This document shows, piece after piece, positions 10,726 to 63,587 of a stretch of 64,000 bases of DNA. The stretch comes from a virus, in the IMG/VR virus record IMGVR_UViG_3300048672_001165, positions 1 to 64,000 of that record. One strand, 5' to 3'. The stretch's first letter is position 1. Each line of letters starts with the position of its first letter. A program made the translations under genes and the position numbers. The notes beneath the pieces were generated by a model. It was not told the origin of the DNA, searched no databases, and worked only from the letters and a program-made list of their open reading frames with translations.

Positions 10726-11385
10726 ATGAGTACTTTTGAACTGTTCGTTTTCGCTCTGGGTCAAATGGGCGCCGCCGGCGCCCTGGACGTGATGCAGCTG
10801 ATCAGCCGCATCGCACGGCTGATCGTCGTCCGCACGGACGGCAGTGTGTTCCTCCCGCAGCGGCGGGAGGAACACTGGCAGGGCATTCTCTCGGAAGGTG
10901 AAGCTTTCCGGGGCGCCCTCGGATGGGCTGCTGGTCTGCAGATTGACCCCCCGGAGTGGGTGACGGCTCTGTCTGAAGAACAGCGCCAGCTGGTGGTTAA
11001 CTTCTGCCACCAGCTCCTGGCGCTCAAGCGTCGAGACTGGGAGGCCGACACGATCGACGTCACCGCTGAGTACCTGATGCGGCCGATGGAGAGCCGCAAG
11101 GTGATGGTCTTTGGCCGAGGAGAGGCAAAGATGTCGCTGAAAGAAATGGTCCAGTTGGACCAAAAGTTCGAATGCCCGTACGTCACCAGCCAGGCCCTCA
11201 TCGGGCTGGCGGCGTACTTCGCCACCATGGGCGACCGCCCGGGCGCCTACATGGCGTCAAAGCTGGAAAAGGCTCAACTGAGCCCCGGCTTTGCCGACAA
11301 GGTCTCCGTCAAGGTCGCCGAGCTGAAGGCGGCCAAGCGGGCGGCCGCCAAGGCACGCGCCGCCGCCAAGAAGGCGGGCAAGTAA
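10726..11385 (+). CDS. Unknown early-type protein with basic tail, paralog 2 (219 aa)
   Basis: Function unknown. Shares with the 11459 product a block around A-L-G-W-A, P-E-W-V and E-Q-x-Q-x-x-V followed by a V-Q-L-x-x-x-F segment. The last ~20 residues are Lys/Ala-rich (K-A-A-K-R-A-A-A-K-A-R), as in nucleic-acid-binding tails. GC-rich, unlike the AT-richer paralogs downstream. The coding DNA is crowded with inverted repeats: GGGCGCC/GGCGCCC (10767-10783), GATCAGCCG/CGGCTGATC (10800-10824), CGTCCG/CGGACG (10827-10840), a 12-bp stem GTGTTCCTCCCG/CGGGAGGAACAC (10846-10875), AGCTGGTGG/CCACCAGCT (10988-11015), TCTTTG/CAAAGA (11108-11131), TGGTCCA/TGGACCA (11147-11162). Confidence 0.82.
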   Translation: MSTFELFVFALGQMGAAGALDVMQLISRIARLIVVRTDGSVFLPQRREEHWQGILSEGEAFRGALGWAAGLQIDPPEWVTALSEEQRQLVVNFCHQLLALKRRDWEADTIDVTAEYLMRPMESRKVMVFGRGEAKMSLKEMVQLDQKFECPYVTSQALIGLAAYFATMGDRPGAYMASKLEKAQLSPGFADKVSVKVAELKAAKRAAAKARAAAKKAGK

Positions 11386-11391
11386 GCGTAG

Positions 11392-11437
11392 GCTAGACGG
11401 GGTGAATGTCACACCCCGTCTAGCTGACTTTTTCTTT
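11392..11437 (+). terminator. Terminator after 10726 gene
   Basis: Perfect 13-bp stem GCTAGACGGGGTG (11392-11404) with CACCCCGTCTAGC (11412-11424), then TTTTTCTTT. The next gene has no promoter box of its own, so it may depend on read-through. Confidence 0.85.
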
Positions 11438-11458
11438 GAACTCTTATAGGAGTGAAAA

Positions 11459-12076
11459 ATGAGTTTGTTTGAATCGTTCTTTTTCTGCTTGAACCAAATG
11501 CGCCACATGCTGGCGCAAATGGTGTACACCACCGGCAGCGGCAGTTTCGGGGTCAGCCCCCCGCTTGTTACTGTCTGGGTGGGCCTTCAACAAACCCACG
11601 GCTGGGCGTTCCACGACGCCCTCGGATGGGCGCTCTTGGGCGACGTCGCCCCGGAGTGGGTGGCCGTCCTGACGGCCGAACAGCAAGCGGCCGTCCAGGC
11701 TGCCTGCCGCCAGCTGGCGGCAGAGCAGAGGAAAGAGTGGCTGGCGCAGGCAGCCGGCTACGCTGCCAACCACCTGGCAAGCCAAAAGACCATCTTGGTG
11801 GCCCAGACCGGACTGCCGGCCAGAAAGATCCGCGCTACCGAGGCGGTTCAACTGGGTGGTCACTTTGTGGTCCACCCCTCGGACGTCCGAAAATTTGCAG
11901 CGGTGGGGCTGTACCTCCACCACAAGGCCCTGTCAAAGGGTCTGCCCAGCCCGGTCTCGGCTGACGCTGCGGGGATGATCCCGCACATCGACGAGGTCGA
12001 CGAGGAGTTCCTGATCCAGGCTGACGCCTGGATCGAGGAGCTGAAGAAGCGAAAGCGCTTGAAGAAGCGCAAGTAA
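11459..12076 (+). CDS. Unknown early-type protein with basic tail, paralog 3 (205 aa)
   Basis: Function unknown. Paralog of the 10726 product and, more distantly, of the 10063 product (H-P-S-D-V-R-K-F-A-A-V motif). Ends in K-K-R-K-R-L-K-K-R-K, a strongly basic tail suggesting nucleic-acid binding. Start ATG after TATAGGAG. The GC-rich coding DNA is packed with inverted repeats: GCGCCA/TGGCGC (11500-11516), a 14-nt palindrome (11638-11651), GGCCGTC/GACGGCC (11662-11677), a perfect 20-nt palindrome of half-site CTGCCGCCAG (11704-11723), and GATCCAGGC/GCCTGGATC with a TGAC loop (12013-12034). Confidence 0.82.
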   Translation: MSLFESFFFCLNQMRHMLAQMVYTTGSGSFGVSPPLVTVWVGLQQTHGWAFHDALGWALLGDVAPEWVAVLTAEQQAAVQAACRQLAAEQRKEWLAQAAGYAANHLASQKTILVAQTGLPARKIRATEAVQLGGHFVVHPSDVRKFAAVGLYLHHKALSKGLPSPVSADAAGMIPHIDEVDEEFLIQADAWIEELKKRKRLKKRK

Positions 12077-12084
12077 GCTTTGCG

Positions 12085-12127
12085 CTAGTGGGGGTGAAAC
12101 TCCCCCACTAGTTCCTCTTTCTTTTTT
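12085..12127 (+). terminator. Terminator after 11459 gene
   Basis: Stem CTAGTGGGGG (12085-12094), loop TGAAACT, CCCCCACTAG (12102-12111), then a pyrimidine tail ending in TTTCTTTTTT. Confidence 0.85.
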
Positions 12128-12141
12128 CCCCCCTGATTCCA

Positions 12142-12188
12142 CATATTACAGACCCTATATTACTTTTCTGATAGATCCCTAGTCTATC
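12142..12188 (+). promoter_or_regulatory. Tandem early-type promoter boxes and leader hairpin
   Basis: CATATTAC (12142-12149) and an exact TATATTAC (12156-12163) lie 14 bases apart. A leader stem follows: GATAGA (12170-12175), loop TCCCTAG, TCTATC (12183-12188). ACAGGAG precedes the ATG at 12221. The three genes 12221, 12866 and 13559 follow without another terminator. Confidence 0.65.
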
Positions 12189-12220
12189 TTCCCTCTACCA
12201 CTTGACAGGAGAATTGAACA

Positions 12221-12847
12221 ATGGCTACCATCAACCCCAACCTGACCTTTACTGAATGGTTCGCACAGATCGACACAATCCATCTGTATTTTTTGCTGGA
12301 CGATGACGGCACGCCCGGCCTTATGCCTCTTGTGCAGCGTGGTTTGTTTCGCAAAGAGTATGAGCACCATATCGAAACGGCTTTTAGTATTTTGTTTGCT
12401 ATCTATCTCGGAATCGGTTTTGATCATATTGACTTGGACGCTGAAACAAAAGAGAAGGCAGTTCAAGTTTTGACCAACATTATCAAGAGCCGAAAAGAAA
12501 AGGAGCGCATTTCTGATGTGCGTACCGTAGCTCTGCTGCTGGTGAAAAACCCAACACATACTCTTCACAACAACTCCAATAGGTGTGTTGAAACGGATTA
12601 CATGGGTTATTTCTCAAGTCCTGAAGTGTTGTATATGCGAACAAACTCGCAAAACAACCGCTACTGGAGCGATCATGTCGCATCACTGATGATGAGCTAC
12701 TATGCACATACTGGGCTTGTACCTAAGAACGCCGTAGCTGCCCGTCAGATCAAACCCATTGAAAACTTTGCTGAGTTTAAACTGGCTGTAGAAAAGCGCA
12801 TTGAAGAACTCAATGCTCGCGCAGCATCTAAAACCGAATCTGTTTAA
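12221..12847 (+). CDS. Unknown early-type protein, paralog 4 (208 aa)
   Basis: Function unknown; soluble and mostly helical. Clearly paralogous to the 12866 product: Y-E-H-H-I-E with A-I-Y-L-G-I-G here against Y-R-H-H-V-E with A-L-Y-L-G-A-G there, and M-M-S-Y-Y-A-H-T-G-L-V-P followed by I-K-P-I-E-N-F against M-C-S-Y-Y-A-S-L-G-H-Y-P followed by I-T-P-I-E-D-F. The layout (N-terminal helices, variable centre, Y-Y-x-x-x-G block, final E-E-L helix) also matches the GC-rich 11459 protein. Base composition is ordinary and coding hairpins are not evident, so those belong to particular genes, not to the protein family. Confidence 0.8.
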   Translation: MATINPNLTFTEWFAQIDTIHLYFLLDDDGTPGLMPLVQRGLFRKEYEHHIETAFSILFAIYLGIGFDHIDLDAETKEKAVQVLTNIIKSRKEKERISDVRTVALLLVKNPTHTLHNNSNRCVETDYMGYFSSPEVLYMRTNSQNNRYWSDHVASLMMSYYAHTGLVPKNAVAARQIKPIENFAEFKLAVEKRIEELNARAASKTESV

Positions 12848-12865
12848 TAGAAAAAGGAAACAAAC

Positions 12866-13558
12866 GTGGACAATCAAATCAACCGGTCTGAAAACATGGA
12901 TGACGTCACTGAAATCAGCTACGAGCAGTGGCTGGATTTGGTCACTGCTAACAGCGAATACCTGTCAAACATTCTGATCCAAGGCGCGCCAAAAGGTGTT
13001 GTTGCTCCGTATGGTTATGCGGATAGCTCATATCGCCACCACGTTGAAAAGACCCGTGAGTATTTCATGGCACTTTATCTTGGTGCGGGACTGGCTCATT
13101 TTAGCTTGGAGCCTGAAACAGTTGAAAAGCTGACCCAACTCTACCAAGAATTGGCTGCTAATGAGAAACAGTCTTTCCGTTTAAGAATGATCACGGCTGT
13201 AGCTTACCGTTTACTGTTTCCTGAGAAGTTTCACTTTGAAGTGTTTCATGAGAAGGAAGTTGTTTCAAGAACTGTGAGCTACCTTAAGTTCCTACAAACA
13301 GAAGGGTTGTATATTGATCAGCCGCCTCGCATCATTCGCCCCTATGGCGACTCGATGTTGTCGATCATGTGCAGCTACTACGCTAGCCTGGGGCACTATC
13401 CACACAACCCCTACGCTATGCGGCTGATTACCCCGATCGAAGACTTTCCTTCTTTTCAACAGGCGGTGAAAGAAAAGATGGTAAAACTTTCATCAGATAA
13501 CTTGACCTATATAGAACCTAAACACGGATGGGTTTGGGTCTGGACAAAGGAAAACTAA
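12866..13558 (+). CDS. Unknown early-type protein, paralog 5 (230 aa, GTG start)
   Basis: Function unknown. The GTG at 12866 is chosen because AAAAAGGAAA sits 8 bases upstream; an in-frame ATG at 12896 is the alternative. Paralog of the 12221 product over most of its length (see the motifs there). Only 18 bases separate it from that gene, so they share a transcript. The stop codon is immediately followed by the next start, implying translational coupling. Confidence 0.8.
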   Translation: MDNQINRSENMDDVTEISYEQWLDLVTANSEYLSNILIQGAPKGVVAPYGYADSSYRHHVEKTREYFMALYLGAGLAHFSLEPETVEKLTQLYQELAANEKQSFRLRMITAVAYRLLFPEKFHFEVFHEKEVVSRTVSYLKFLQTEGLYIDQPPRIIRPYGDSMLSIMCSYYASLGHYPHNPYAMRLITPIEDFPSFQQAVKEKMVKLSSDNLTYIEPKHGWVWVWTKEN

Positions 13559-14149
13559 ATGAGCCTTATCCAGTGGGCTGAAATGCCCAATAACAAACCG
13601 CCCCTACACACACTGATTTGCTTTAACAAACTCAGACCCCTACCGCCTGTGTCAGATTGGTTTCCCGACCCTTCTGACTTTAAAAAAGCTCAGATGTGTT
13701 ACGGTGCATTCATGAGCTTTTACTTGAAGCACCCGAGTGTTAATCGCTTAGTCACTGACCAGGCTGAACTCCTTTACTTGAAAGGTCGCTACACGTCAAT
13801 CTTGCGCTTAGCTCGAAAAGAAAAGTTGCAGGTATCGCGGCACGAATTGCTGGCAGCAATATCAGATAACACCAAGCACCCTGTGATACTTCATGGCAAA
13901 ATGCGGCTAAGTTTCTCAGAGATTTATGCCTCTGAGTTCAACTGGCGCTTTGTAATTCCAGGCACCAAAAGAAAGTTTAGCTTCTTTGCAAATTGGCAAA
14001 TCAGCTTAGGTATTCTACCTGGCAATGAAATGGCGTCGACCTGTATTACTGAAGTCATCAGTAGTAAGGCGTTGCGTCAGATCTCAGAGTACCATACGCA
14101 ACAAACAGAACTGGCTTTGATCAGAGAACTTCCTCACAGAACTGTTTAA
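13559..14149 (+). CDS. Unknown early-type protein, probable paralog 6 (196 aa)
   Basis: Function unknown. Starts at the base after the 12866 stop (TAAATG). A region with A-F-M-S-F-Y-L, then charged helices, then F-F-A-N-W-Q-I-S-L-G-I-L-P (near residue 145) has the same layout as the S-Y-Y-A-x-x-G-x-x-P block of the two preceding products, so I place it in the same family with less certainty. Last gene of the 10-14 kb cluster, converging on the helicase gene. Confidence 0.75.
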   Translation: MSLIQWAEMPNNKPPLHTLICFNKLRPLPPVSDWFPDPSDFKKAQMCYGAFMSFYLKHPSVNRLVTDQAELLYLKGRYTSILRLARKEKLQVSRHELLAAISDNTKHPVILHGKMRLSFSEIYASEFNWRFVIPGTKRKFSFFANWQISLGILPGNEMASTCITEVISSKALRQISEYHTQQTELALIRELPHRTV

Positions 14150-14151
14150 AA

Positions 14152-14236
14152 GCGGCATAAAAGCCGCAGACCCTCTACCCACCCTCTTCTTAGGAGGAGT
14201 GGGTAGAGGGCTACTCTTTTATGCTTTTTTCTTTTT
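14152..14236. terminator. Bidirectional terminator between convergent genes
   Basis: GCGGC/GCCGC mini-hairpin enclosing ATAAAA (14152-14167), then a 12-bp stem CCCTCTACCCAC (14171-14182) with GTGGGTAGAGGG (14199-14210), then CTTTTATGC and TTTTTTCTTTTTT. The GGCATAAAA and TTTTATGC boxes flank the stem, so each strand reads hairpin then T-rich tail. Confidence 0.9.
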
Positions 14237-15777
14237 TACGCGCCAAAGAAGTCAACCGGCTCTTCAGCGTTGCTACCCACGACCCCGCCTCCGACTCGCT
14301 TCAAGTCGATGCGGTCTCGTTCCAGATCATCAATGATCGGACCCTTCTCAGGAAACGGCAGCACAATGTACATTTGGTCATCGGGAATCACCGGCACACC
14401 ACGGTGCTTACCACGTTGGATTGTAAGGTAAGCGCGCCCATTATACTTCTCAATATGTTGGTAAATCTCACCATCCACTTCTTGGTCAATTTGCTTACTG
14501 CCCCGGTAGTAACCTTTACCAGGAAGCTCTTTGACAAAGTCTGTCTTACCATCTCGAATCAGCTGCTTAGCATCTGTACTGAGCTGGTGAGGTGTATAAA
14601 ACGGAATACCCTTAGCAGAGAAGAAAGCTCGGTTACGGCGGTACATGTCTTGCAGTGAATGACCCATTGGGCCATCTTCACATCCCGTCGTAGGCAGCAT
14701 GGGAAAGTAGTCGCACATGACAAAGTGGACTTCATAACCTTCCGACTCATATTTCAGAACTAGATTGTTCAGGTCCTTATACGACCACATGGTCGAATTG
14801 ATGCGGTGCATCTTCACGTGATAACCGCGTTTACTGAGTTCAGTGGTGACCGTATGCACCATCTGCTCCACAGGCACCAAGCGGATATCGGGCATTTCAC
14901 CTTCGCGGTTCATGATGATGTTTTCATACAAGAACCGCATGTTGTTAGCCAAGCTGTCTTCAAACGAGATGCGAATGAGCAGCGGCTTCTTAGACGGGTC
15001 TTTCAAGTAAGGGTCGTTATAGATCGCCACTTGCTTAAAGATAGACAGAGAAAAACCTGTCTTGTATTTGTGTTGCAGCGCAGGATTGACCCATTGTTCA
15101 CCAGGCCTGAAGCCACCTTGCAGCATGGCGTTTACCGCTTGCCAGCCCGTCTTCAAAATACCAACAGCAGATTCCGTATTTTGCAGGTCAGTAAAGACTG
15201 CTTCAATGCCTGCCAGATCACCCAGGTCAATCTCACCCACACATGCCGGATCTTTACCGCCACTATTGTCGACTTGAAACGGCTCTAGCTTTTGATTGAG
15301 TTCCGCCACATACTTACGCATGTTCGGAATCGTTTCTCTCTTGAAGTTGAGTTCAGAGTTAGCGATGCGAATAATGCTCTTAATCTCTAGTTCGTTCAGG
15401 TAGTCATTCAGACCACGGCGAATAGAAAGGATCTGGCGCTTGAGCTGAACATCATTCAGCTCATCATCTACACCCGCTTTAAACGCTTCAAACGCGTTGT
15501 CGTCATGGGTGCAGTTCATGCGCACACGCTGCATGATGTCTAGACGATCTGCAGCTTCTTGACCCGGCAGATCACACAAATAGATGATGGTGTCTTTCAG
15601 ACCCATCACTTCAGTTTTCTCATGACTGAGCGTGAGTTCAATCTCAGGCAGTTTAATGGTCTCTAAGACCTTACGAACCAGTTCTGAGCTGTTGCCTGTA
15701 TCGGGGTTGACTTGGGCCAGCTCGTTTTCACGAAACAGCAGAGTAGCGCACTTGATCAGCAGATCAACGTTGGTCAT
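14236..15777 (-). CDS. DnaB-like replicative helicase with altered Walker A (513 aa)
   Basis: RecA-fold helicase of the DnaB C-terminal type, expected to unwind DNA at the phage fork. Visible: G-G-F-R-P-G-E (221-227), the usual lead-in to the P-loop; L-Q-H-K-Y-K-T-G (234-241) at the Walker A position, with Tyr where the last Gly of G-K-[ST] normally stands; Walker B H-F-V-M-C-D-Y (351-357); H-Q-L-S (397-400), equivalent to the DnaB S-Q-L-S/N motif; G-S-K-Q-I-D-Q-E-V-D (426-435), matching the G-S-x-x-I-E-Q-x-A-D segment; and R-G-K-H-R-G (455-460) for the arginine-finger region. Residues 1-190 are not recognisably a DnaB N-domain. It could also be an SF4 ATPase with another role. No strong Shine-Dalgarno upstream. 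Confidence 0.8.
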   Translation of the reverse strand: MTNVDLLIKCATLLFRENELAQVNPDTGNSSELVRKVLETIKLPEIELTLSHEKTEVMGLKDTIIYLCDLPGQEAADRLDIMQRVRMNCTHDDNAFEAFKAGVDDELNDVQLKRQILSIRRGLNDYLNELEIKSIIRIANSELNFKRETIPNMRKYVAELNQKLEPFQVDNSGGKDPACVGEIDLGDLAGIEAVFTDLQNTESAVGILKTGWQAVNAMLQGGFRPGEQWVNPALQHKYKTGFSLSIFKQVAIYNDPYLKDPSKKPLLIRISFEDSLANNMRFLYENIIMNREGEMPDIRLVPVEQMVHTVTTELSKRGYHVKMHRINSTMWSYKDLNNLVLKYESEGYEVHFVMCDYFPMLPTTGCEDGPMGHSLQDMYRRNRAFFSAKGIPFYTPHQLSTDAKQLIRDGKTDFVKELPGKGYYRGSKQIDQEVDGEIYQHIEKYNGRAYLTIQRGKHRGVPVIPDDQMYIVLPFPEKGPIIDDLERDRIDLKRVGGGVVGSNAEEPVDFFGA

Positions 15778-16861: not shown

Positions 16862-19087
16862 ATGTCTACCAAACTCCAACTGGCATCCCTGATGAGCGGC
16901 TCGGCCGGCGTCAGCGCTGCTGCCTCGATTCCGACCAACTCGGTCAAGCTCACCGACGTCATCACCGGCCTGATGCAAGGCCAAGGCAGCTCCTACGTGG
17001 ACCAGGGCGTCGCCGGCAAGTACCTGTCGGCCGAGTCCTACGACGGTGCTGTGCGCGAGAAGCTCACCGGTGCTGTGCAGAACCTGCAAGCCCTGCTGGG
17101 CCAAGCCTTCAACCAGGCTGACATCACCCCGGCGGCTCGCCCGGGCTTCGCTCAAGAAGCTGCTGCGGTCTTCGGCGGCATGGCCGCTCGCAACATCAAG
17201 CAGGCCATGGCCACCGCGCCGCGCAGCCGCGAGCAGATCGCTGCTGCCTTCGCCGGCAACGAGTTCGTCACCGTGGTCGGCAACGACGCTGGTGTGATGG
17301 CTCTGGAGTCGCACCCGGCCCTCGAAGCCTACAACGAGACGCAGAACTCCAACGCGGTCGCCAACACGATCAGCTACAACCTGCAAGCCGCGCGCCAAGA
17401 CAGCTTCGGTGAGACCTTCTTCCCGACGACCGTCCTGACCCACGACAACATCGGCGCCCAAGTCGAGATGACCGTTCACCTGGTCTACGACGAAGTCAAG
17501 CGCTCGATGGCTGGTGCCGTCTCCAACTTCGGCCGCATCAACATCATCAAGGCCTTCGTCGATCCGACGATCATCCGCAACGACCAGACCCGCCTCTATC
17601 CGGTGGTCCGCTCGGGCGGCGCCGACGTCGACACGACCGCCAACTTCGTGGCCTCGACCGATGTCGCTCCGATCTCGATCGTCCAGGACAAGCTGCCGGT
17701 CACGACCGCTCCGCTCAAGATCGGTCAGACCTTCGACCTGATGGCCGTCTCGCAACGCGCCGCGCTGGTGGCTGCTGGTGTGCTCGACCAGACCGACGAC
17801 ATCGATCCGTCCATCACCCTGGACGCGATCTACATCAAGCTGGGTGCCAACGGCGGCAACAAGGTCCTGAAGTTCCCGGTGGCCGACATGGCCGGTGCGG
17901 ACTTCAACCAAGCTGTTCAGGGCAACACCCGCACGATGTCGCTGAACTTCAACAACCGCGACCTGATGGTTCTGCCCACGACGACCGACGTCACCGGCGC
18001 TCCTGTGGCGCAGCTGGCTGCTGTGGCCGGCTACACTGCTCGCCTCAAGGTCAGCCTGTTCGGCCAGGTCACCCTGGACACGGGTGAAACCACCGTCAAC
18101 GCCGCTGCGACTTCGGTCTCGCGCGTCATCGACGTCAACGGCAACGTGCTGGATCTGGGCGCCGGCGTCGGCGCGCAAGTCGCTGCGCTGTTCACGGGTG
18201 CAACCGTGGTCGGCTACGACCTGCGTGCCTGGCTGACCAACGCCAACCGTCGTCAGCGCGGCCAGCTGATCGACACCCAGACCTACCGCACGATGTACAC
18301 CGTGCCGCGCCTGCCGCCGGTCACGGCGCTGCGTCCGCTGGGTGCTTCGGAAGCCAACGACGGCAAGCTGGTGGAAACGCTGGTGCTGACCACCCGCATC
18401 CGCACCTCGAACGCGGCCGTGGCGGCCCTGCAGAACGCCGAGCGCGTCCTGTCGAACTGGGTCGGTCAAGCTGATCCGACGGTCCAGGTCCCGGAAATCC
18501 TGGGTCCGGCAGCTCGCCTGGTCAACCCGGTCTTCATGTCCGATTCGATCAACGTGACGGAAGTCGCCGCGCTGACCGACGAGGAGAAGATCGCCAACAT
18601 CCGCGCCAAGCTCGTCAACAAGCTGCGCGACATGGCCACCCGCATGTGGACGACGTCGGCCTACGGTCCGGCGGACGAAGCCATCACGGGCGCGGCCGGC
18701 AAGCCGCTGGTGCTGATCGGCGTCGATACCGACGTCTATCGCTACCTGTCGATCGACGGCGACACCCGTCTGCTGGGCGACCAGTTCGACGTGCGTCTGG
18801 TGACGACCTACAACAAGGAAGTCTACGGCAAGATCTACATGACCTTCGGCAAGGCCGAAGCCATCGGCTCTGGCGTGCCGCACCCGCTGCACTTCGGCAC
18901 CATGTTCTGGTGTCCGGAAGTCACCGTCATGGCTCCGATCCAACGCAACGGTCAGACCTCGTTCGAACTGACCACGGCTCCGCGTTTCCGTCACGTCGTC
19001 ATGCTGCCGATTCTGGCCAAGATCAACGTGACCGGCATCAAGGAAACCATCGATACGAAGATCCCGGTCTTCTTCCACACGGTCTAA
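16862..19087 (+). CDS. Major capsid protein (741 aa)
   Basis: Forms the icosahedral head shell. Evidence: length close to the phiKZ-type major capsid protein (about 750 aa); extreme GC-rich codon bias (almost all third positions G or C) against neighbours of mixed codon use, the pattern expected of the most abundant virion protein; a good ribosome site (GAGGA); alanine-rich helical N-terminal region (about 1-110) followed by a mixed beta-rich body; no signal peptide. No protease-site motif is assigned. A 782-codon ORF on the opposite strand is a shadow of the GC-rich codons. Confidence 0.78.
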   Translation: MSTKLQLASLMSGSAGVSAAASIPTNSVKLTDVITGLMQGQGSSYVDQGVAGKYLSAESYDGAVREKLTGAVQNLQALLGQAFNQADITPAARPGFAQEAAAVFGGMAARNIKQAMATAPRSREQIAAAFAGNEFVTVVGNDAGVMALESHPALEAYNETQNSNAVANTISYNLQAARQDSFGETFFPTTVLTHDNIGAQVEMTVHLVYDEVKRSMAGAVSNFGRINIIKAFVDPTIIRNDQTRLYPVVRSGGADVDTTANFVASTDVAPISIVQDKLPVTTAPLKIGQTFDLMAVSQRAALVAAGVLDQTDDIDPSITLDAIYIKLGANGGNKVLKFPVADMAGADFNQAVQGNTRTMSLNFNNRDLMVLPTTTDVTGAPVAQLAAVAGYTARLKVSLFGQVTLDTGETTVNAAATSVSRVIDVNGNVLDLGAGVGAQVAALFTGATVVGYDLRAWLTNANRRQRGQLIDTQTYRTMYTVPRLPPVTALRPLGASEANDGKLVETLVLTTRIRTSNAAVAALQNAERVLSNWVGQADPTVQVPEILGPAARLVNPVFMSDSINVTEVAALTDEEKIANIRAKLVNKLRDMATRMWTTSAYGPADEAITGAAGKPLVLIGVDTDVYRYLSIDGDTRLLGDQFDVRLVTTYNKEVYGKIYMTFGKAEAIGSGVPHPLHFGTMFWCPEVTVMAPIQRNGQTSFELTTAPRFRHVVMLPILAKINVTGIKETIDTKIPVFFHTV

Positions 19088-19212: not shown

Positions 19213-19260
19213 TATATCACTATACTGAGACGAGTGTTGTCTCTGACCTATCCTCAAAGG
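19213..19260 (+). promoter_or_regulatory. Early-type promoter box and leader hairpin for a 34-aa gene
   Basis: TATATCAC at 19213-19220; leader stem GAGAC (19227-19231), loop GAGTGTT, GTCTC (19239-19243). AAAGGAG lies just before the ATG at 19269. Same order of elements as at 10007, 10662, 12156, 19735, 20526 and 62126. Confidence 0.6.
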
Positions 19261-19268: not shown

Positions 19269-19373
19269 ATGACGATCGCTGATAAGTTGGACAATCTTTA
19301 TTATATCGACCGAGACTACTGGAACAACTTGGTGCACAACTACCAACAATCCCTCAAGAAAGAAAAGGTGTAA
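19269..19373 (+). CDS. Small early-type protein (34 aa)
   Basis: Unknown micro-protein, M-T-I-A-D-K-L-D-N-L then aromatic residues (Y-Y-I-D-R-D-Y-W) and a Lys-rich end. The ATG at 19269 is preferred over an upstream in-frame start at 19146 because AAAGGAG is 5 bases upstream and because the promoter box and leader hairpin lie between the two. Probably one amphipathic helix; no membrane segment. A short host-takeover peptide is plausible but is inference only. Confidence 0.6.
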   Translation: MTIADKLDNLYYIDRDYWNNLVHNYQQSLKKEKV

Positions 19374-19734: not shown

Positions 19735-19782
19735 CATATCACTACTCTGAGGTAAGGAATGTCTCTTTACCCAAGATGCTTT
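19735..19782 (+). promoter_or_regulatory. Early-type promoter box with conserved leader hairpin
   Basis: CATATCAC at 19735-19742; stem GGTAAGGA (19751-19758), loop ATGTC, TCTTTACC (19764-19771). Bases 19748-19782 are identical to 10675-10709. The stretch upstream (CTGCA, a T run, AATCACATATCACTA) is shared almost exactly with 62106-62135, so promoter and leader are conserved between unlinked loci. Confidence 0.7.
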
Positions 19783-19798: not shown

Positions 19799-20140
19799 AT
19801 GACTGTTGTTGCTGTTCTGAATACCAACGGTACCGCCGAGTCGGTATTGAACGATGTCGCCCAAATGGGCGGCACGTTTATTAAGATCTGCCATGTGGCA
19901 CGTGGCGTAGTGGCCGTCCACGTGGACGGCCACCAGCGTCGGCTCAAAACCTTTCATCACGCGGGGTACCCGACTCGCGTAAAAGTCGGTGCAACATTGT
20001 ACGCTTCAATCGAAGCGTATTTTGAGAAGTACCCCGATGATGAATTGAGTTGGGTGGGAGGGCCTTCAGCTCTTCAAAGCGACCGCTTGCCAGCCTGGGT
20101 CAACCGAGTAGGGCGGCCGGTGAAGATCGTGAAGGGTTGA
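19799..20140 (+). CDS. Unknown early-type protein with hairpin-dense coding DNA (113 aa)
   Basis: Function unknown. A compact alpha/beta protein with no membrane or signal segment; TTAGGAG precedes the ATG. The coding DNA carries CGCCCA/TGGGCG (19858-19871), TGCCA/TGGCA (19890-19901), a perfect 24-nt palindrome with half-site GTGGCCGTCCAC (19910-19933), CCGACT/AGTCGG (19970-19989), and TACGCTTC, loop AATC, GAAGCGTA (20000-20019). The end of the gene (GGTTGACCC across the stop) can pair with GGGTCAACC at about 20097. Confidence 0.78.
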   Translation: MTVVAVLNTNGTAESVLNDVAQMGGTFIKICHVARGVVAVHVDGHQRRLKTFHHAGYPTRVKVGATLYASIEAYFEKYPDDELSWVGGPSALQSDRLPAWVNRVGRPVKIVKG

Positions 20141-20207: not shown

Positions 20208-20453
20208 ATGAGCAGCGCTTGTGCAGCGCTGGTCGTGGCCGCACGTATGCGGCACACGGCCGCCCTACTCGGAGTTCAGCTGTGCCTTCGGGTCATGGCT
20301 GAATCCAAAATTGGCCCGAGCCACCGCGCTCAGGCCCTTGCAGAAATCCTGGTGGCGGAGTCCCGCCACCAGTGCAAGAATTGGCCGCTTATCGAGCGTC
20401 TCCTTGGAGACCTTGAGGCGGAGCTGGATATCGAGACAGGCTACAACCTGTAA
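20208..20453 (+). CDS. Unknown early-type protein with hairpin-dense coding DNA (81 aa)
   Basis: Function unknown; helical, no signal. ATG preceded by AGGAAAGGAA. Coding hairpins: AGCGCT/AGCGCT (20214-20230), GCCGC/GCGGC (about 20239-20253), 10-bp CTGGTGGCGG/CCGCCACCAG with loop AGTC (20349-20372), GTCTCC/GGAGAC (20398-20411), and a nested pair ending the gene: 11-bp CTGGATATCGA/TCGATATCCAG (20424-20464) around ACAGG/CCTGT, spanning the stop codon. Probably read through from the 19735 promoter. Confidence 0.75.
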   Translation: MSSACAALVVAARMRHTAALLGVQLCLRVMAESKIGPSHRAQALAEILVAESRHQCKNWPLIERLLGDLEAELDIETGYNL

Positions 20454-55222: not shown

Positions 55223-55224
55223 TT

Positions 55225-56181: not shown

Positions 56182-56183
56182 AA

Positions 56184-56854: not shown

Positions 56855-56856
56855 AG

Positions 56857-56900: not shown

Positions 56901-56911
56901 TTGTCAGGGGA

Positions 56912-57904: not shown

Positions 57905-59335
57905 ATGCAAATCGACTTTAGCATCCTGCCTCAGACAGAAGAGGCCCCTTTGATTACCCCTATGTTCAACGTTGGTTGCTTGTTTGATATTGCAACTGGT
58001 CGTTTCATTCGTGGTATTCATGGTGAGCATATTCTCAGTGGCGGCGCAGGTGCTGTCACTGGGTTTGTGGGTATTGCTAATACGTATAAAACCACTTGTG
58101 CTGAGTATATGCAGCTCACCATTGGTGCGCGTTTCCCCTACGCCATCATGGACAAGCACTGTACAGAACTCAGTGCACAAGTCGAGCGTTCTCGCCACCT
58201 TGCAAGTCAGATCCCTGAGTACCTTGGAGAAGACCCGACCAGCTACGGTACCAGCCGCTGGAAGCTCACCAACCAAGCACAGTACTGGGGCAATGAGTGG
58301 TTTAAAGATAAGCGCATTTGGCTTTCAGCCAAAGCAGATAACCGAATGAAGTTTTCGTTCACGTCGCCTTTCCCAGGTAAGGACGAAAAACCCATGAAGA
58401 TGATGTACCCGACCAGCTCTTTGGTAGACTCTCTGACTCGGTTTGAAACTGAATCGGTCAGTGAGATGGATGAGAAAGCTGAGCTGGGTGACTCTGCAGC
58501 CAATACGCTGTACATGAAAGCAGGTCAGGCCAAAGCTCGCATGGTGGGCGCTTTGCCTCGTCTTTCTGTCGACGCAGGTCATCTGTTTTTCCTGACGGCG
58601 CACGTGGGTAAGCTCATTGGTATGGACCCTTATGCTGGTCCGACCCGTAAGCTAACAACTTTGAAGAACGGCGACGTCATCAAGGGTGTGACTGATAACT
58701 TCCTCTTCCTGACCACTCAGTGCTGGCAAACGTATAACGCAGGCCCTTTGATTAACCAAACTACTAAAGCTCCTGAGTATCCTCGTAATACGGACGACAA
58801 CGTCTCAGGTGATACTGATCTGGTGCTGCTCACACTCAATCTGCTGCGTAACAAGTCAGGTCCTTCTGGCCTCATGATGAATATTATCGTGTCCCAAGAA
58901 GACGGCTTGCAGCCTTCTTTGAGTGAGTTCCATTACTGCAAAATCAATGACCGCTGGGGTCTTGGTGGTAACGATAAGAACTACTACCTTGAACTGATGC
59001 CAGAAGAAAAGCTGAGCCGCACGACAGTGCGAGGTAAACTGGATAAGAACGCTGCGCTTCGCCGTGCTATGAATATCACATCTGAGATGCTTCAGATGAA
59101 AATGCTGTGGGATAATATCCCAGCAGGCTACATGTGTACGCCCTTAGAGCTGTACACTGATCTCAAAGCCAAGGGTTACGATTGGGGTAAAATCCTCAAT
59201 AATACCCGAGGCTGGTGGACAGCTGAGCAAGATGATCACCCGCTCAAGTTCTTGTCTACCATGGATCTACTGGCCATGCGTGCTGGCGTTTACCAGCCGT
59301 ACTGGGACCCGCAAGACAAGCTGCTCAAAGTTTAA
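57905..59335 (+). CDS. RecA-like ATPase with altered Walker A (476 aa)
   Basis: Probable strand-exchange recombinase or related RecA-fold ATPase. The ATG at 57905 (GGAAGA upstream) is preferred over 57857. The P-loop position reads G-I-A-N-T-Y-K-T-T (56-64), with Tyr replacing the last Gly before Lys. G-H-L-F-F-L-T-A-H-V-G-K (225-236) fits the Walker B and following strand of RecA/UvsX. C-terminal 120 residues form an extra domain. Longer than UvsX (about 390 aa). With RuvC-like and RNase H proteins it suggests phage-coded recombination-dependent replication. A helicase loader or other RecA-fold ATPase is the alternative. Confidence 0.6.
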   Translation: MQIDFSILPQTEEAPLITPMFNVGCLFDIATGRFIRGIHGEHILSGGAGAVTGFVGIANTYKTTCAEYMQLTIGARFPYAIMDKHCTELSAQVERSRHLASQIPEYLGEDPTSYGTSRWKLTNQAQYWGNEWFKDKRIWLSAKADNRMKFSFTSPFPGKDEKPMKMMYPTSSLVDSLTRFETESVSEMDEKAELGDSAANTLYMKAGQAKARMVGALPRLSVDAGHLFFLTAHVGKLIGMDPYAGPTRKLTTLKNGDVIKGVTDNFLFLTTQCWQTYNAGPLINQTTKAPEYPRNTDDNVSGDTDLVLLTLNLLRNKSGPSGLMMNIIVSQEDGLQPSLSEFHYCKINDRWGLGGNDKNYYLELMPEEKLSRTTVRGKLDKNAALRRAMNITSEMLQMKMLWDNIPAGYMCTPLELYTDLKAKGYDWGKILNNTRGWWTAEQDDHPLKFLSTMDLLAMRAGVYQPYWDPQDKLLKV

Positions 59336-59352
59336 AGACATTTCCATTATGA

Positions 59353-59395
59353 GGTCAACTGCTGGTGAGGACAGCTGACCTTTTCCTTTTTCCTC
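59353..59395 (+). terminator. Terminator after RecA-like gene
   Basis: AGGTCAACTG pairs with CAGCTGACCT (one mismatch; about 59355-59384), then TTTCCTTTTTCC. Confidence 0.7.
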
Positions 59396-59423
59396 CTCCC
59401 AATTCACACACCAAGGTATCCAC

Positions 59424-60026
59424 ATGCGTTTTCTCAAAGTCCTCATGGCAGCCATGCTGCTGATCGTCGGTGTCGTCTTCGGCGCACATGCCCAAGCAGC
59501 ACCCTTCGGCCTGATGGCCAACCCGACCTTCCTGCCCAACAACCCGCTGGTCACCGTCAAGGCCGGCTACCTGCAGCCGATCCCGAGCTGGCAAGGCAGC
59601 GGCAAGGCCAACGTCGGCCTCTACCCGGTGATCGACGGCCTCTACATCGGCCAAGCGGCCGGCACCATCTCCGGCTCGGCCAGCATGCTGCCCTATGCTG
59701 CCAACCCGAGTGTGACCCAAGTCGTGGCCGTGCCGACCAGCTGCCCTCAGCAACGTGTCGATGTGACCTTCGCCTTCATCGGCGGCCCGGTCTGGAGCCT
59801 GGCGCAAGACGCTTTCAAGATCACGGTGAGCAACAGCGTGCAGCGTTACAGCTGGATCACGGCGCCGGCCAAGACGGCAGGCCCTGACCAAGTCTACAAC
59901 TACCTGCTCAACCTGCCGGTGGGCAAGACCTACATGGTCAGCCTGGGCAGCGCCATGAGCTACAAGGCCAACACGCCTGCTCCGGCTGGTATCCAGGTGA
60001 AGTACTTCCAGATCACATGCATCTGA
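59424..60026 (+). CDS. Highly expressed secreted protein (200 aa)
   Basis: Clear Sec signal peptide: M-R-F-L-K-V then a hydrophobic core M-A-A-M-L-L-I-V-G-V-V-F-G and A-H-A-Q-A, cleavage near residue 23-25. The mature part is beta-rich, with two Cys (in T-S-C-P-Q and near the end I-T-C-I) that could form a disulfide. Codon use is as GC-rich as the capsid gene, implying very high expression. No family recognised. An abundant phage periplasmic or exported protein may serve superinfection exclusion, lysis control or envelope protection; this is inference. Confidence 0.7.
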   Translation: MRFLKVLMAAMLLIVGVVFGAHAQAAPFGLMANPTFLPNNPLVTVKAGYLQPIPSWQGSGKANVGLYPVIDGLYIGQAAGTISGSASMLPYAANPSVTQVVAVPTSCPQQRVDVTFAFIGGPVWSLAQDAFKITVSNSVQRYSWITAPAKTAGPDQVYNYLLNLPVGKTYMVSLGSAMSYKANTPAPAGIQVKYFQITCI

Positions 60027-60049
60027 CTCGTCTACTCTAGGTAAGAGAC

Positions 60050-60090
60050 ATGCTGGTGCTTAAATATAGAAAGCACCAGCATTTTATAGT
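60050..60090 (+). terminator. Terminator after secreted-protein gene
   Basis: 12-bp stem ATGCTGGTGCTT (60050-60061) with AAGCACCAGCAT (60071-60082), then TTTATAGTTT. Confidence 0.85.
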
Positions 60091-60152
60091 TTAGCATTAT
60101 CACACCCCTTCCAACCGTTTTCAACGTGCTTCTTTAAGAGGTTAAATCCATC

Positions 60153-60512
60153 ATGCTCTCGCAACAAGAACTTTTTCGTGCTCGTCTGCCGGGCGAAATC
60201 GATATCGTGGATGAGGTCACTCGCATGTTTCGTGACCGAGGCCACACGCATCCCGACTTCTGGGTCGACCCGCTGAGCCACAGCATCCGCGCCAACGTGC
60301 GTACGCTCAACTGGCGCCTGCAGATGAAAGCCATCTGCGACTTCTTTGTGCTCAAGATCGGCACCCATGGCCTGGTCAACGGCGAAGACACTCGCACCGT
60401 GCGTGCGTTCGGCCTGATCACGTCTGAAGAGTCTGAAGTCGGTCAAGTCCTGGCTGGCTGGGACAAGTCGCTCGTGATGTACATGGTCGACCGCAACGTG
60501 AGCGTGTACTAA
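60153..60512 (+). CDS. Small unknown protein (119 aa)
   Basis: Soluble alpha/beta protein, GC-biased codons suggesting good expression. Motifs: R-G-H-T-H-P-D-F-W-V-D-P near 30-40. No family recognised. It begins after AAGAGGTTAAATCC. Followed by two tandem hairpins. Confidence 0.65.
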   Translation: MLSQQELFRARLPGEIDIVDEVTRMFRDRGHTHPDFWVDPLSHSIRANVRTLNWRLQMKAICDFFVLKIGTHGLVNGEDTRTVRAFGLITSEESEVGQVLAGWDKSLVMYMVDRNVSVY

Positions 60513-60518
60513 TACACG

Positions 60519-60595
60519 CTTGCTGGCGCAGCAAGAACTACCTAGTGCTTTTCTGAGTAAAAGCCTAGGTAGTCATCTTTTTTCTTTTATGCCGT
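60519..60595 (+). terminator. Tandem-hairpin terminator
   Basis: First hairpin CTTGCTG, loop GCG, CAGCAAG (60519-60535); second ACTACCTAG/CTAGGTAGT (60537-60573) containing a nested GCTTTT/AAAAGC; then CATCTTTTTTCTTTTATGCCG. Confidence 0.85.
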
Positions 60596-60646
60596 CTATG
60601 GTTTGAGACTGATTTTTTCTATTCACATTTTAAGGATAAAACGACC

Positions 60647-61330
60647 ATGGCCAAACTAGGCAACCGAAAAGCAGCTGAAGCTATCATCATGAAGTGGATT
60701 CCTCAGATCATCCCGAATGGGGTGAACGAGACAATCTACAAAGAAAAGCTAGCTGCTTTAACCGATGAAGAGTTTCACAACCTCATGCTCACACTCAAAG
60801 CAGGAGGCACTCTTCCCATCTATACACCTAACTACAACGATACTCGAATCAATACCAAGCACCTGTTCAGGTTAGCCAAGACCATGGGTGTGCAGCTCTT
60901 TCACCGCATCCAAGTGCCTGAGTCTGAAACGAATCGCCCTTACCTGACACCTCGTAAATACTTGGTGGTGAGGCTGCCTTACCGACGAGCGGCTCAGCTG
61001 CTTGTCAAAAAGATCAGCATCCCTGCAGACAACAACTCTGTTGACTTCTATACAGGTCAAGTCACCGGCTCCAGTAAAGGCGCTTCCATTTCTCTGCCTG
61101 AGCTGCGCATGCTCTCAGCCATGAATCTGTCCCACTCTGTTGTGGAACTAGAGAAATACAGAGGCGGTGATGAGGGTGGTTTCAGAGCGATGAACTACAC
61201 GCTCCACCAGCAGGGTCGAGTCTCCATGAAAGAAATCAGTCAATTTGCCTCTGGTGTGCGTTCCACCTGGACACTGAAGCAATTCCTCAACGCGGCCCAC
61301 CTGAAGAACACCTTAACCGATAAAGCATGA
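60647..61330 (+). CDS. Unknown protein (227 aa)
   Basis: Soluble alpha/beta protein. A segment around 145-170 (G-A-S-I-S-L-P-E-L then L-S-H-S-V-V-E-L-E-K-Y-R-G-G-D) faintly recalls the C-terminal G-x-R-x-x-x-x-E block of RNA polymerase beta, but the length and remainder do not fit, so I do not call it. Overlaps the next gene by 4 bases (ATGA), so the two are coupled. AAGGAT upstream. Confidence 0.65.
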   Translation: MAKLGNRKAAEAIIMKWIPQIIPNGVNETIYKEKLAALTDEEFHNLMLTLKAGGTLPIYTPNYNDTRINTKHLFRLAKTMGVQLFHRIQVPESETNRPYLTPRKYLVVRLPYRRAAQLLVKKISIPADNNSVDFYTGQVTGSSKGASISLPELRMLSAMNLSHSVVELEKYRGGDEGGFRAMNYTLHQQGRVSMKEISQFASGVRSTWTLKQFLNAAHLKNTLTDKA

Positions 61331-62058
61331 ACAACCCCTCTCAACTCTACATTGATATCCAAGCCCTACTCGATACCCGTCTGGGGTGTCTCATGGGGCT
61401 ACACGAAGAGTTTGCTCTTTTCGTCACCAAACGAAAAGACTACTACACCAGAGAAATCGACTGCTTTACTCACCCTGAGATGGGCGAGCTAAGTCGAGAA
61501 CTCTTTGAAGAAACTCTTTCTAAACAAGGCCCTTCTGTTCTTGACCACAGTCCTATGACCTGTATGGTCGAATGGGTGAGGAAATGGCTAGAATACTTTG
61601 TCGTACAAGAAGTTAACTCCCCTATTAAAGGTGGGGTCAATATCACGATCAATACCTTTCCTTTTGAGCTAGACTCAGAAGAACGAATTGAACTAATAGA
61701 AACTTTAAAAGTTTATTGGGGCCCTATTTTCCCCATGTCGGTTATTTGTGTTGACCCACAGAAAATAAGCTTGATTAATGACAGCCACAGTACCTACATC
61801 TTTTACTATGCTCTGGACTGGCTCAAAGCTAACGAACAAGTCATCAACGGCGCTAGTGCGTTTAATAAAACGGTGTATCTACCTAAGATCAACTTAGTCA
61901 GAGCACTGACTAAAGAAGAACGTACACAACTCCAACAAGAAGGTATTGATCCTTTTGATTTGATCAGTGAAGCGTTTAAGATGAAGTTGAAAGTAGAGTT
62001 CTTACCGATACAGCTCTACTGCATCGACGCTCCTGAAAACCCTTCTTGTACGAAGTGA
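61327..62058 (+). CDS. Unknown protein (243 aa)
   Basis: Starts within the stop of the 60647 gene. Alpha/beta, mildly acidic, no membrane segment. No motif recognised. Ends just before a copy of the GGCAGGC terminator. Confidence 0.65.
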   Translation: MNNPSQLYIDIQALLDTRLGCLMGLHEEFALFVTKRKDYYTREIDCFTHPEMGELSRELFEETLSKQGPSVLDHSPMTCMVEWVRKWLEYFVVQEVNSPIKGGVNITINTFPFELDSEERIELIETLKVYWGPIFPMSVICVDPQKISLINDSHSTYIFYYALDWLKANEQVINGASAFNKTVYLPKINLVRALTKEERTQLQQEGIDPFDLISEAFKMKLKVEFLPIQLYCIDAPENPSCTK

Positions 62059-62066
62059 AGTGAGCA

Positions 62067-62110
62067 GCATAAAAGGCAGGCCTAAGAGCCTGCCCCATAT
62101 GCCGCACTGC
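62067..62110 (+). terminator. Terminator, copy 3 of the GGCAGGC hairpin
   Basis: GCAGCATAAAA box, GGCAGGC/GCCTGCC around a changed loop CTAAGA (about 62076-62095), then CCATATGCCGC. Confidence 0.8.
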
Positions 62111-62125
62111 AATTTTTTCTAATCA

Positions 62126-62165
62126 CATATCACTAAGATGAAGTAGGGAATGTATCTCTACAACT
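62126..62165 (+). promoter_or_regulatory. Early-type promoter box with leader hairpin carrying a compensatory change
   Basis: CATATCAC at 62126-62133; leader stem GTAGGGA (62143-62149), loop ATGTA, TCTCTAC (62155-62161). Compared with GTAAGGA/TCTTTAC at 10679 and 19752, one A-T pair has become G-C on both sides, which preserves pairing. TTAGGAG then leads to the ATG at 62179. The upstream 30 bases match those at 19716-19746. Confidence 0.7.
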
Positions 62166-62178
62166 TAGGAGTATTACC

Positions 62179-62448
62179 ATGTCTGTCCGTCAAACCCTGA
62201 GCGTCTCGACTTCGGTCGAGACGTTTTTGTTTAACTTCAGCTCGACTTCGGTCGAGCTGGTTCTGAACCAGCGCGTGGCTGGCCGCGTTCGCGCGGCCAC
62301 AGTCCGCGCTTTGTTCGCGGCCGCAGTGGCCGCCTTCTCGGCCGGCGCTGGCGCCGCCGAGGTGGATGACTATTGCGACAACGCGGTCGTCGCCGGGCTG
62401 AACTGGCAAGCGGCGATCGATGACATATTCACTGCAGCGATGCAGTGA
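62179..62448 (+). CDS. Small unknown early-type protein, mRNA a chain of hairpins (89 aa)
   Basis: Protein: Ala/Val/Ser-rich, a repeated S-T-S-V-E unit, an Ala-rich central helix (A-A-A-V-A-A-F-S-A-G-A-G-A-A), acidic end; no clear function. The coding DNA is nearly continuous inverted repeats: CGTCTCGAC, loop TTCG, GTCGAGACG (62202-62223); CAGCTCGAC, loop TTCG, GTCGAGCTG (62238-62259); CTGGTTC/GAACCAG (62257-62271); GGCCGCG, loop TTCG, CGCGGCC (62281-62298); GCGGCC/GGCCGC (62317-62333); and TTCACTGCA, loop GCGA, TGCAGTGAA (62428-62449) covering the stop codon. It is hard to rule out that the RNA, not the peptide, is the selected product. Confidence 0.6.
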   Translation: MSVRQTLSVSTSVETFLFNFSSTSVELVLNQRVAGRVRAATVRALFAAAVAAFSAGAGAAEVDDYCDNAVVAGLNWQAAIDDIFTAAMQ

Positions 62449-62463
62449 AGTTTCCCAGTAGTG

Positions 62464-62496
62464 AGAAAGAGGGTCAGTAGGCTCTCTTTCTTTTGC
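62464..62496 (+). terminator. Weak terminator between 62179 and 62544 genes
   Basis: AGAAAGAG (62464-62471) with CTCTTTCT (62484-62491), then TTTGCC. The next gene has no promoter box, so read-through is likely. Confidence 0.55.
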
Positions 62497-62543
62497 CTGT
62501 GCTTACCAGGCTTTGTAGTAAGCAAATCAATTAGGAGTGAATT

Positions 62544-62891
62544 ATGTCTTTCTACGCTGATGTTCTTGCCGGGCGAGTTCAAATGCCCCACCCGCAGTCA
62601 TGGGACAGCGTGTTTGGGGGCTTTGACCAGATTGAGGGGGCGACTCAGGCCGCCTCGCTGGCGAAGATCCCCAGCTGCCGCTGGGGTATTCTGGCGTTCG
62701 ACGACCAGAATACCAACCCGGTCGCCATCCCCATTTTCCCCCGGCTTGGGGGAAATGGCCTGGAAGAGGCGGTTCAGGCCGCCGCTGCGGTGGCCGGCAT
62801 CTTGTACTCGACCACCCACGTGGTCGACGTGCGGCTGCGCGTGGCGGCTGTCCTGCCTGGCCTGCAAAGTCACGCCAGCTTCACCTTCTGA
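62544..62891 (+). CDS. Small unknown early-type protein with hairpin-dense coding DNA (115 aa)
   Basis: Function unknown; no signal or membrane segment. TTAGGAG precedes the ATG. Coding hairpins: CCCCAGC, loop TGCC, GCTGGGG (62669-62686); GGTATTCTGG/CCAGAATACC (62685-62714); CCATTT..CCCCC/GGGGG AAATGG (62731-62758, one bulge); GGCCTG/CAGGCC (62758-62780); TCGACCAC, loop CCAC, GTGGTCGA (62808-62827). The two stems at 62669-62714 share bases 62685-62686, showing how tightly they are packed. Confidence 0.68.
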   Translation: MSFYADVLAGRVQMPHPQSWDSVFGGFDQIEGATQAASLAKIPSCRWGILAFDDQNTNPVAIPIFPRLGGNGLEEAVQAAAAVAGILYSTTHVVDVRLRVAAVLPGLQSHASFTF

Positions 62892-62916
62892 AGGGGGGTT
62901 ATCATGACCCCCTTCA
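62889..62916 (+). promoter_or_regulatory. Hairpin masking the ribosome site and start codon of the 62904 gene
   Basis: TGAAGGGGG (62889-62897) pairs with CCCCCTTCA (62908-62916). The GGGGGG ribosome site lies in the left arm, the ATG (62904-62906) in the loop, and the right arm is within the new gene. The left arm contains the stop codon of 62544. Translating ribosomes would open the stem, so the second gene should depend on translation of the first. Confidence 0.65.
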
Positions 62917-63587
62917 ACGAGCCGCGCGTTTACGCGGCGGGGTTGTCTACGGACGACCCCACGCAGGCCTTCGCTTATGGCGAAGGCCTCTTCGTCCGGC
63001 AGCGCAACAAGGTGGCGTTCACTACGTCCGGCAATTTCATTGCCGAGCTGGCGCAGGGGCTCTGGTACCAGATCAATGGTACCCGGGTGAAAAAGCCCGC
63101 CACGGCGGTGATTAAGCCGGACATCGCAGTCCGGGCGTTTTCGCATGACCGCTACATGGCGGTGATGTCAGAAATCGCCACGGACTGCGAAGCGGTCCAG
63201 GGGTTGCTGGAAGGACAGCCCCTGGTCCAGAACTTAGACCTAGTGCCGCGAATGGCACCGCATACGCCAGCTGCCCCGGGAGAAATCCCGGAATTTAAGC
63301 TGGTGGCATCGCCGAACAGCGGCAGCTCCTTCACGTCGGATGTAAAGTTCGACGTGAAGTTTGGCAATCTGTCTTTCCGAGACGAGACGGGCAACCGCAT
63401 CGTCGTGAACGACCTGCTTCCGTATGCGCAGGAGGCATTTCGATTTGACGTGACTATCATGAAGTTTCAGCAGCTGGCCGCCCTGGTGCGGCTGGCGCTG
63501 ACCTTTAATGAAAGTCAGACGTCTTGGAAAATCCAATGGGTCTTCGTGCCGCAAACCGGGCTGTATTACAGCCTTGAGGCGGCATAA
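62904..63587 (+). CDS. Unknown early-type protein with hairpin-dense coding DNA (227 aa)
   Basis: Function unknown; mixed alpha/beta with a Pro-rich linker (about 108-125). Coding hairpins: AGGCCTTCGC, loop TTATG, GCGAAGGCCT (62965-62989); CGGCAAT/ATTGCCG (about 63031-63048); GGTACC/GGTACC (63065-63083); GGACTGC, loop GAA, GCGGTCC (about 63182-63200); GTGCC/GGCAC (about 63243-63257); CCGGGA, GNRA loop GAAA, TCCCGG (63276-63291) nested in CCAGCT/AGCTGG; CTTCACGTCG/CGACGTGAAG (63329-63359); GGCTGTA/TACAGCC near the end. The final Ala and stop codon form the GGCATAAA box. Confidence 0.72.
   Translation: MTPFNEPRVYAAGLSTDDPTQAFAYGEGLFVRQRNKVAFTTSGNFIAELAQGLWYQINGTRVKKPATAVIKPDIAVRAFSHDRYMAVMSEIATDCEAVQGLLEGQPLVQNLDLVPRMAPHTPAAPGEIPEFKLVASPNSGSSFTSDVKFDVKFGNLSFRDETGNRIVVNDLLPYAQEAFRFDVTIMKFQQLAALVRLALTFNESQTSWKIQWVFVPQTGLYYSLEAA

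Follow-up and report, generated by a model that had tools for sequence, protein, structure and literature searches.

The nearest analogue of the feature described here is the set of coding palindromes in Nematomorpha mitochondria, perfect inverted repeats that likewise lie inside functional protein genes, are dynamic and gene specific, show a codon-phase bias, and are not accompanied by an excess of imperfect repeats (PMC6649704). Template switching and quasi-palindrome mutation likewise give short perfect repeats that have small loops and are associated with high transcription (PMC8794818, PMC3820800, PMC8604942), and palindromes are found in coding sequence as Rickettsia palindromic elements and other intragenic palindromic repeats (cited in PMC6649704). 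The window analyzed here (bases 1 to 64,000 of the 93,684-base virus record IMGVR_UViG_3300048672_001165, whose remaining 30 kb was analyzed too) contains seven genes, with an eighth beyond its end, whose coding sequences are chains of perfect, tightly looped hairpins. These hairpin-chain genes differ from the Nematomorpha analogue in arm size, density, and restriction to a regulon. In Nematomorpha the organelle genes have arms of up to 284 bp and no link to a regulon (PMC6649704), whereas long arms of that kind are lacking here and arms of 7 to 13 bp with loops of 4 to 5 nucleotides (nt) occur many times per gene, in only four phage operons with a common leader. The known template-switch cases are single events, and no description was found of a dense chain in one regulon that is absent from highly expressed late genes. 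The Rickettsia elements are a repeated mobile sequence family, whereas the stems here are unrelated except for a 16-nt core that occurs twice in gene 62179 (genes are named by their first base).

Genome-scale ordered RNA structure in RNA viruses is another case of selected local mRNA structure. Bacterial and phage mRNAs in general also have lower folding energy than their synonymous shuffles, but through ordinary imperfect pairing. No phage precedent for coding hairpin chains was found in the open-access literature, itself part of the whole. The genes described here are a clear example, from a DNA phage, of a definite group of genes whose coding sequence is reshaped by nucleic-acid structure. 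They open to test how the early mRNAs of jumbo phages, made from one genome copy, are stabilized, handled, or hidden, and they provide a natural test bed for telling whether RNA hairpins arise by fold-back mutation or by selection.

Judged from its genes, the carrier is a phiKZ-like jumbo (giant) phage. The capsid and other virion proteins of the record are phiKZ-like (major capsid phrog_3231, E 2e-166), and early promoters of the phiKZ consensus type, TATATTAC (PMC7058600), were found as well. The capsid is 41% identical to that of Burkholderia phage FLC9 and 44% identical to that of the nearest IMG/VR contig found. No relatives were found of those window genes that were searched. The eight genes are as follows.

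10726..11385, plus strand: hairpin-chain gene, including a 13-bp perfect stem with a 4-nt loop at 10846-10875
11459..12076, plus strand: hairpin-chain gene, apparent distant paralogue of 10726
19799..20140, plus strand: hairpin-chain gene, with the 24-bp perfect palindrome GTGGCCGTCCACGTGGACGGCCAC at 19910-19933
20208..20453, plus strand: hairpin-chain gene
62179..62448, plus strand: densest hairpin-chain gene, with 36% of bases in perfect arms of at least 6 bp
62544..62891, plus strand: hairpin-chain gene
62904..63587, plus strand: hairpin-chain gene, with arms of at least 7 bp within the first 180 nt
93224-93682 (L003:15224-15682), outside the window: hairpin-chain gene with a Csx20-like product

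Synonymous codons were shuffled within each gene 1,000 times, a procedure that leaves protein and codon usage unchanged and comes close to preserving dinucleotides, and bases in perfect arms of at least 6 bp with loops of 3 to 10 nt were counted; fractions of 1,000 below give the shuffles with as many arm bases as the native gene. All eight genes carry a 2.5- to 4.8-fold excess of arm bases, each at 0 to 14/1000: 114 against 45.6 expected in 10726 (2/1000), 118 against 36 in 11459 (0/1000), 48 against 10.6 in 19799 (2/1000), 46 against 12.9 in 20208 (14/1000), 97 against 29 in 62179 (0/1000), 64 against 14.1 in 62544 (2/1000), and 96 against 34.2 in 62904 (3/1000), with the strongest signal in 93224 (4.8-fold, 0/1000). 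The excess is real and far above chance, and seven of the eight genes named as hairpin dense in the initial annotation are confirmed. The eighth of those, 10063, had been credited with sparser hairpins, but its minimum free energy (MFE) z score is -0.04 and its arm bases are matched in 37/1000 shuffles, so that it is not a hairpin-chain gene. Folding energy (span of at most 60) gave z scores of -2.8 to -7.3 for the hairpin-chain genes, in line with the arm counts, and the transcript at 62136-63130 reached -12.45 against dinucleotide shuffles, compared with -3.06 for the capsid gene.

Chance, composition, or an assembly artefact is the least probable source of such values. GC-rich genes do give more hairpins by chance, and their expectation is higher, but the shuffles hold protein, codon usage, and, nearly, dinucleotides in place. 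The perfect repeats lie in genuine open frames, one of them within a conserved protein family, and frames and family are intact across the hairpins, whereas a chimeric fold-back would yield long arms and broken frames.

Perfect arms of at least 7 bp cover a fraction of 0.10 to 0.29 in seven of the eight genes and 0.07 in 62904; none of the remaining 56 genes exceeds 0.086. In related phages 2 of 1,050 open frames have coverage of at least 10%, versus 7 of 64 genes here (Fisher p 5e-8), and of 1,587 frames from retrieved loci 4 do so with at least two hairpins. No such genes were present in four whole or nearly whole records of relatives, nor in parts of FLC9 and LucasX; dense hairpin windows in the four relatives were intergenic terminators where inspected. 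A weak excess exists elsewhere, at about 1.8-fold (1.76-fold) in the phage's other genes and 1.1- to 1.6-fold in relatives, and the trait is therefore a difference of degree. In 450-nt pieces the mean energy z is -4.5 for the eight genes, with their perfect, tight hairpins, versus -1.8 for the other genes here and a baseline of -0.8 to -2.0 in relatives; because the phage's other genes score like those of its relatives, their weak structure is ordinary background.

As had been proposed, the trait does not follow GC content. The equally GC-rich late genes are below expectation, with 62 arm bases against 82 in the capsid gene and 12 against 25 in each of 59424 and 87817. The AT-richer genes at 12221-13559 were likewise rightly set apart, 12221 and 12866 being null in the shuffle test and 13559 borderline (24/1000). 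Codon usage of the hairpin genes correlates with that of the capsid gene (r 0.82) and of other GC3-rich genes (0.92) more than with the rest (0.64), which suggests that they are highly expressed; this codon-usage class also includes the hairpin-poor capsid gene. The hairpin genes are short, look highly expressed, and are of early type by their promoter sequence. As a separate observation, the GC3-rich late-type genes at 16862-19087, 59424-60026, and L003:9817-10326 contain fewer perfect hairpins than their synonymous shuffles, a possible avoidance.

Promoter class had been named as the determinant of the trait, and this holds in part: the genes are early type by promoter, but only the four operons with one class of leader carry chains. 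The record has seven early-type promoters, [CT]ATAT[TAC]AC, each with a stem-loop, a ribosome-binding site, and a start codon after it; the stem sequences differ from one another. Early promoters of jumbo phages are AT-rich motifs centered near -10 (PMC7598289), and the stem-loop is therefore expected at the 5' end of the transcript. A class II leader with the conserved loop GGAATGTNT follows four of the promoters, at 10662, 19735, 62126, and 93161 (L003:15161), and these head exactly the hairpin-chain operons (4/4). Class I leaders, with unrelated loops, head none (0/3; 10007, 12156, and 19213). Two of the five pairs of the class II stem are compensatory, with 100% pairing in three distinct sequences.

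10662..10700, plus strand: promoter TATATAAC and class II stem-loop GTAAG-(GAATGTCTC)-TTTAC; operon 10726/11459
19735..19773, plus strand: promoter CATATCAC and class II stem-loop; operon 19799/20208
62126..62164, plus strand: promoter CATATCAC and class II stem-loop GTAGG-(GAATGTATC)-TCTAC; operon 62179/62544/62904
10007..10039, plus strand: promoter TATATTAC and class I stem CTTGAGA-(8 nt)-TCTCAAG; gene 10063, without a hairpin chain
12156..12188, plus strand: promoter TATATTAC and class I stem GATAGA-(7 nt)-TCTATC; genes 12221-14149, without a hairpin chain
19213..19243, plus strand: promoter TATATCAC and class I stem GAGAC-(7 nt)-GTCTC; small open reading frame at 19270

Stem-loops also follow some TATATAAC sites in two relatives (G015 and G001), and the 5' stem-loop may be more general than the hairpin chain. 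A search of Rfam gave no family match, and a degenerate leader pattern had no match in other viral contigs. An exact match to a leader 16-mer in one such contig (L043) lies inside a gene resembling a phage portal gene and was set aside as chance.

The promoters also bear on the proposal that the repeats act as DNA cruciforms or single-stranded DNA hairpins serving a virion RNA polymerase or DNA packaging. The arms are perfect and strand symmetric, and several are true palindromes (19910-19933, 11704-11723, and 93595-93614), as that proposal would have it. The hairpins, though, are intragenic and at no fixed distance from promoters, which here carry the same ordinary AT-rich early motif near -10 as in other jumbo phages (PMC7598289). 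Recognition of cruciforms by a virion polymerase, suggested in the initial annotation, is accordingly not borne out, and a DNA-level role of this sort is very improbable.

Arms measure 7 to 13 bp, the longest (13 bp) being that at 10846-10875; they had been put at 5 to 12 bp with short loops, of which the short loops stand. The excess is about 10-fold for loops of 4 to 5 nt and drops away toward 12 nt; it is limited to loops of 3 to 12 nt, with none at wider spacing, and there is no surplus of direct repeats. Perfect arms of at least 8 bp number 21 against 2.9 expected (7-fold), compared with about 2-fold for imperfect stems, so that perfect repeats prevail over imperfect ones as in Nematomorpha. 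Stems with a single mismatch were few. Pairing is gathered into strong local stems, and total pairing is not raised. Loop sequences are varied: the UUCG and GNRA tetraloops noted earlier are present as a minority, with three and one, respectively, of 15 tetraloops on arms of at least 7 bp, and no clear orientation bias of stable tetraloops was seen. No stem or loop sequence is common to the internal hairpins. Arms alternating as A-A'-A are not in excess (5 observed versus 7.0 by random placement), hairpins with arms of at least 8 bp do not overlap one another (0 versus 2.3 expected, P = 0.10), and their codon-phase distribution (11:10:2) is close to the shuffled one and uninformative.

We tentatively favor the explanation that the coding sequences of an early regulon have been selected for autonomous, compact, perfectly paired stem-loops acting on early mRNA. 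The regulon would be marked by the AT-rich early promoter together with the covarying 5'-terminal stem-loop and its conserved loop, and the selected stem-loops would be those with arms of 7 to 13 bp and mostly 4- to 5-nt loops. Before replication, early transcripts would come from the one genome injected; should an early vesicle be made, as in better-known relatives, they would leave it untranslated. GC-rich stems could fold during transcription and form repeated roadblocks to 3' exonucleases and to strand invasion by guide RNAs, while staying shorter than the duplexes of roughly 20 bp that RNase III prefers. The raw hairpins may have come from fold-back template switching and then been kept by selection. 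Selection on early mRNA would explain why the trait is gene specific and tied to a shared leader, why loops are kept so short, why A-A'-A arms show no clear excess, and why late genes, which are transcribed during replication, have no chains.

The competing account, somewhat less probable in our view, is an origin at the DNA level without function, in which intrastrand fold-back (template switching and quasi-palindrome conversion) repeatedly makes and perfects short repeats in this phage lineage, with hot spots where transcription is strong and the proteins are tolerant. It would account for stems that are perfect rather than G-U tolerant and strand symmetric, for varied loops of fold-back size, and for the weak genome-wide excess, higher here than in relatives. 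Quasi-palindrome mutations in yeast require high transcription and yield perfect repeats of 5 to 8 bp (PMC3820800), template switching can both create and maintain hairpins (PMC8794818), and conversion in Nematomorpha has been argued from the lack of imperfect repeats (PMC6649704). One residue of the 93224 protein is Gln, inside two hairpins, where 10 of 11 homologues have Met; the claim that the action is at the nucleic-acid level is upheld by this override of even a conserved residue. Fold-back does not readily explain why late genes that belong to the same codon class, the capsid gene among them, have none or fall below expectation, since transcription during replication should make them mutational hot spots, and this deficit favors selection. 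The early operons of 10063 and 12221-14149 are also spared, repeated fold-back would predict A-A'-A arms, which show no clear enrichment, and there is neither a tail of long arms (maximum 13 bp) nor an excess at spacers above 12 nt. The two explanations are close, and we lean slightly toward selection.

Several results weigh against selection on early mRNA. The stems are Watson-Crick perfect, and no preference for G-U pairs was seen in a comparison of low power: among imperfect stems with arms of at least 8 bp, those with G-U pairs number 16 versus 15 for the A-C control, both about 2-fold above expectation, and with arms of at least 7 bp the counts are 37 versus 27. The antisense strand folds nearly as well as the sense strand (z of -4.0 versus -4.5), and enrichment of stable tetraloops is not clear. 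The predicted unpaired fraction is the same as in synonymous shuffles (0.27 versus 0.29), as is the frequency of single-stranded AU-rich sites (6.7 versus 6.3 per kb). The leader covariation comes from only three distinct sequences and is equaled in 54 of 500 shuffles, and no close relative of the phage is present in IMG/VR. RNase-E-like sites are not depleted. The suggestion that the hairpins protect mRNA by reducing its accessibility to RNases or CRISPR is unsupported, because accessibility equals that of shuffles.

The leader and the uniform geometry raise a further possibility, that the hairpins are binding sites for a candidate phage RNA-handling protein, such as a ChmC-like RNA-binding or export factor, marking class II mRNAs, with the leader loop GGAATGTNT as the primary tag and the internal hairpins adding avidity. 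One geometry, 4- to 5-nt loops on arms of 7 to 10 bp, is strongly preferred, the conserved loop sits on covarying stems in exactly these operons, and phages that form a nucleus export their mRNA and have a gene for the RNA-binding protein ChmC (PMC12908238). The internal hairpins share no loop or stem sequence, however, and the record is a 93.7-kb fragment of a phage for which nucleus formation is only hypothetical, which leaves this possibility improbable.

The product of gene 93224 may bear on counter-defense. Its family carries the motif NLTQH...AMIGGA...DG.V.K, and the PADLOC and NCBIfam models of Csx20 are matched by nine of nine aligned members (best E 3e-9 and 6e-9, respectively); the 93224 protein itself matches at E 3e-6 (PADLOC) and 2e-4 (NCBIfam), with 21.9 bits against the NCBIfam Csx20 equivalog cutoff of 70. 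The nearest homologues are about 50% identical, and the structure model has a confident core (mean pLDDT 83), for which a fold search against solved structures gave no significant match. Csx20 is a cA4 ring nuclease already found in a few phages (PMC12409355). The 93224 product appears to be related to the Csx20 ring-nuclease family without being assigned to Csx20, a candidate viral ring nuclease that hints at counter-defense; its gene lies under a class II early leader. A broader and rather unlikely extension is that the conserved 5' stem-loop and the internal chains form an RNA-level code controlling the fate (stability, export, or immune visibility) of mRNAs made from one injected genome, with one product a Csx20-like protein that counters RNA-sensing type III CRISPR.

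The protein family itself does not explain the trait, since 15 homologues show only a modest excess over baseline (2.2-fold, 1.5 to 3.0, versus 4.8-fold for 93224). One 10-bp hairpin in 93224 has both arms encoding the conserved peptide PDGTV(R)K, and the homologue L097 has a differently centered 9-bp hairpin over the same peptide, which speaks for selection on the mRNA.

Across loci the encoded proteins are mostly dissimilar, as first stated, with two exceptions: neighbors 10726 and 11459 share the motif GWA..PEWV..L..EQ and look like distant paralogues, and the N-terminal domain of 62904 recurs in 65510-67240 of the record. The latter gene (L002:2510-4237) encodes a GC-rich 576-amino-acid protein with two copies of that domain and shows a milder hairpin excess (z 3.7).

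Within 62179, three hairpins have UUCG tetraloops, and two of them share the 16-nt core CTCGACTTCGGTCGAG, whose copies at 62205-62220 and 62241-62256 lie 36 nt apart, with outer extensions that differ and are each perfectly paired. The first ribosome-binding site of this transcript is unpaired in the predicted fold, another point in favor of selection. Farther along the operon there is one further element.

62889..62916, plus strand: 9-bp hairpin over the 62544 stop codon and 62904 start codon, with a G-rich ribosome-binding site in the stem

This hairpin looks like a device coupling translation of 62904 to that of 62544.

Three homologues of 93224 (L045:1042-1060, the same site in L046, and L097:2773-2791) have in common a 7-bp hairpin over FS(V/T)RE(T/V)E, in which two compensatory base-pair changes swap Val and Thr.

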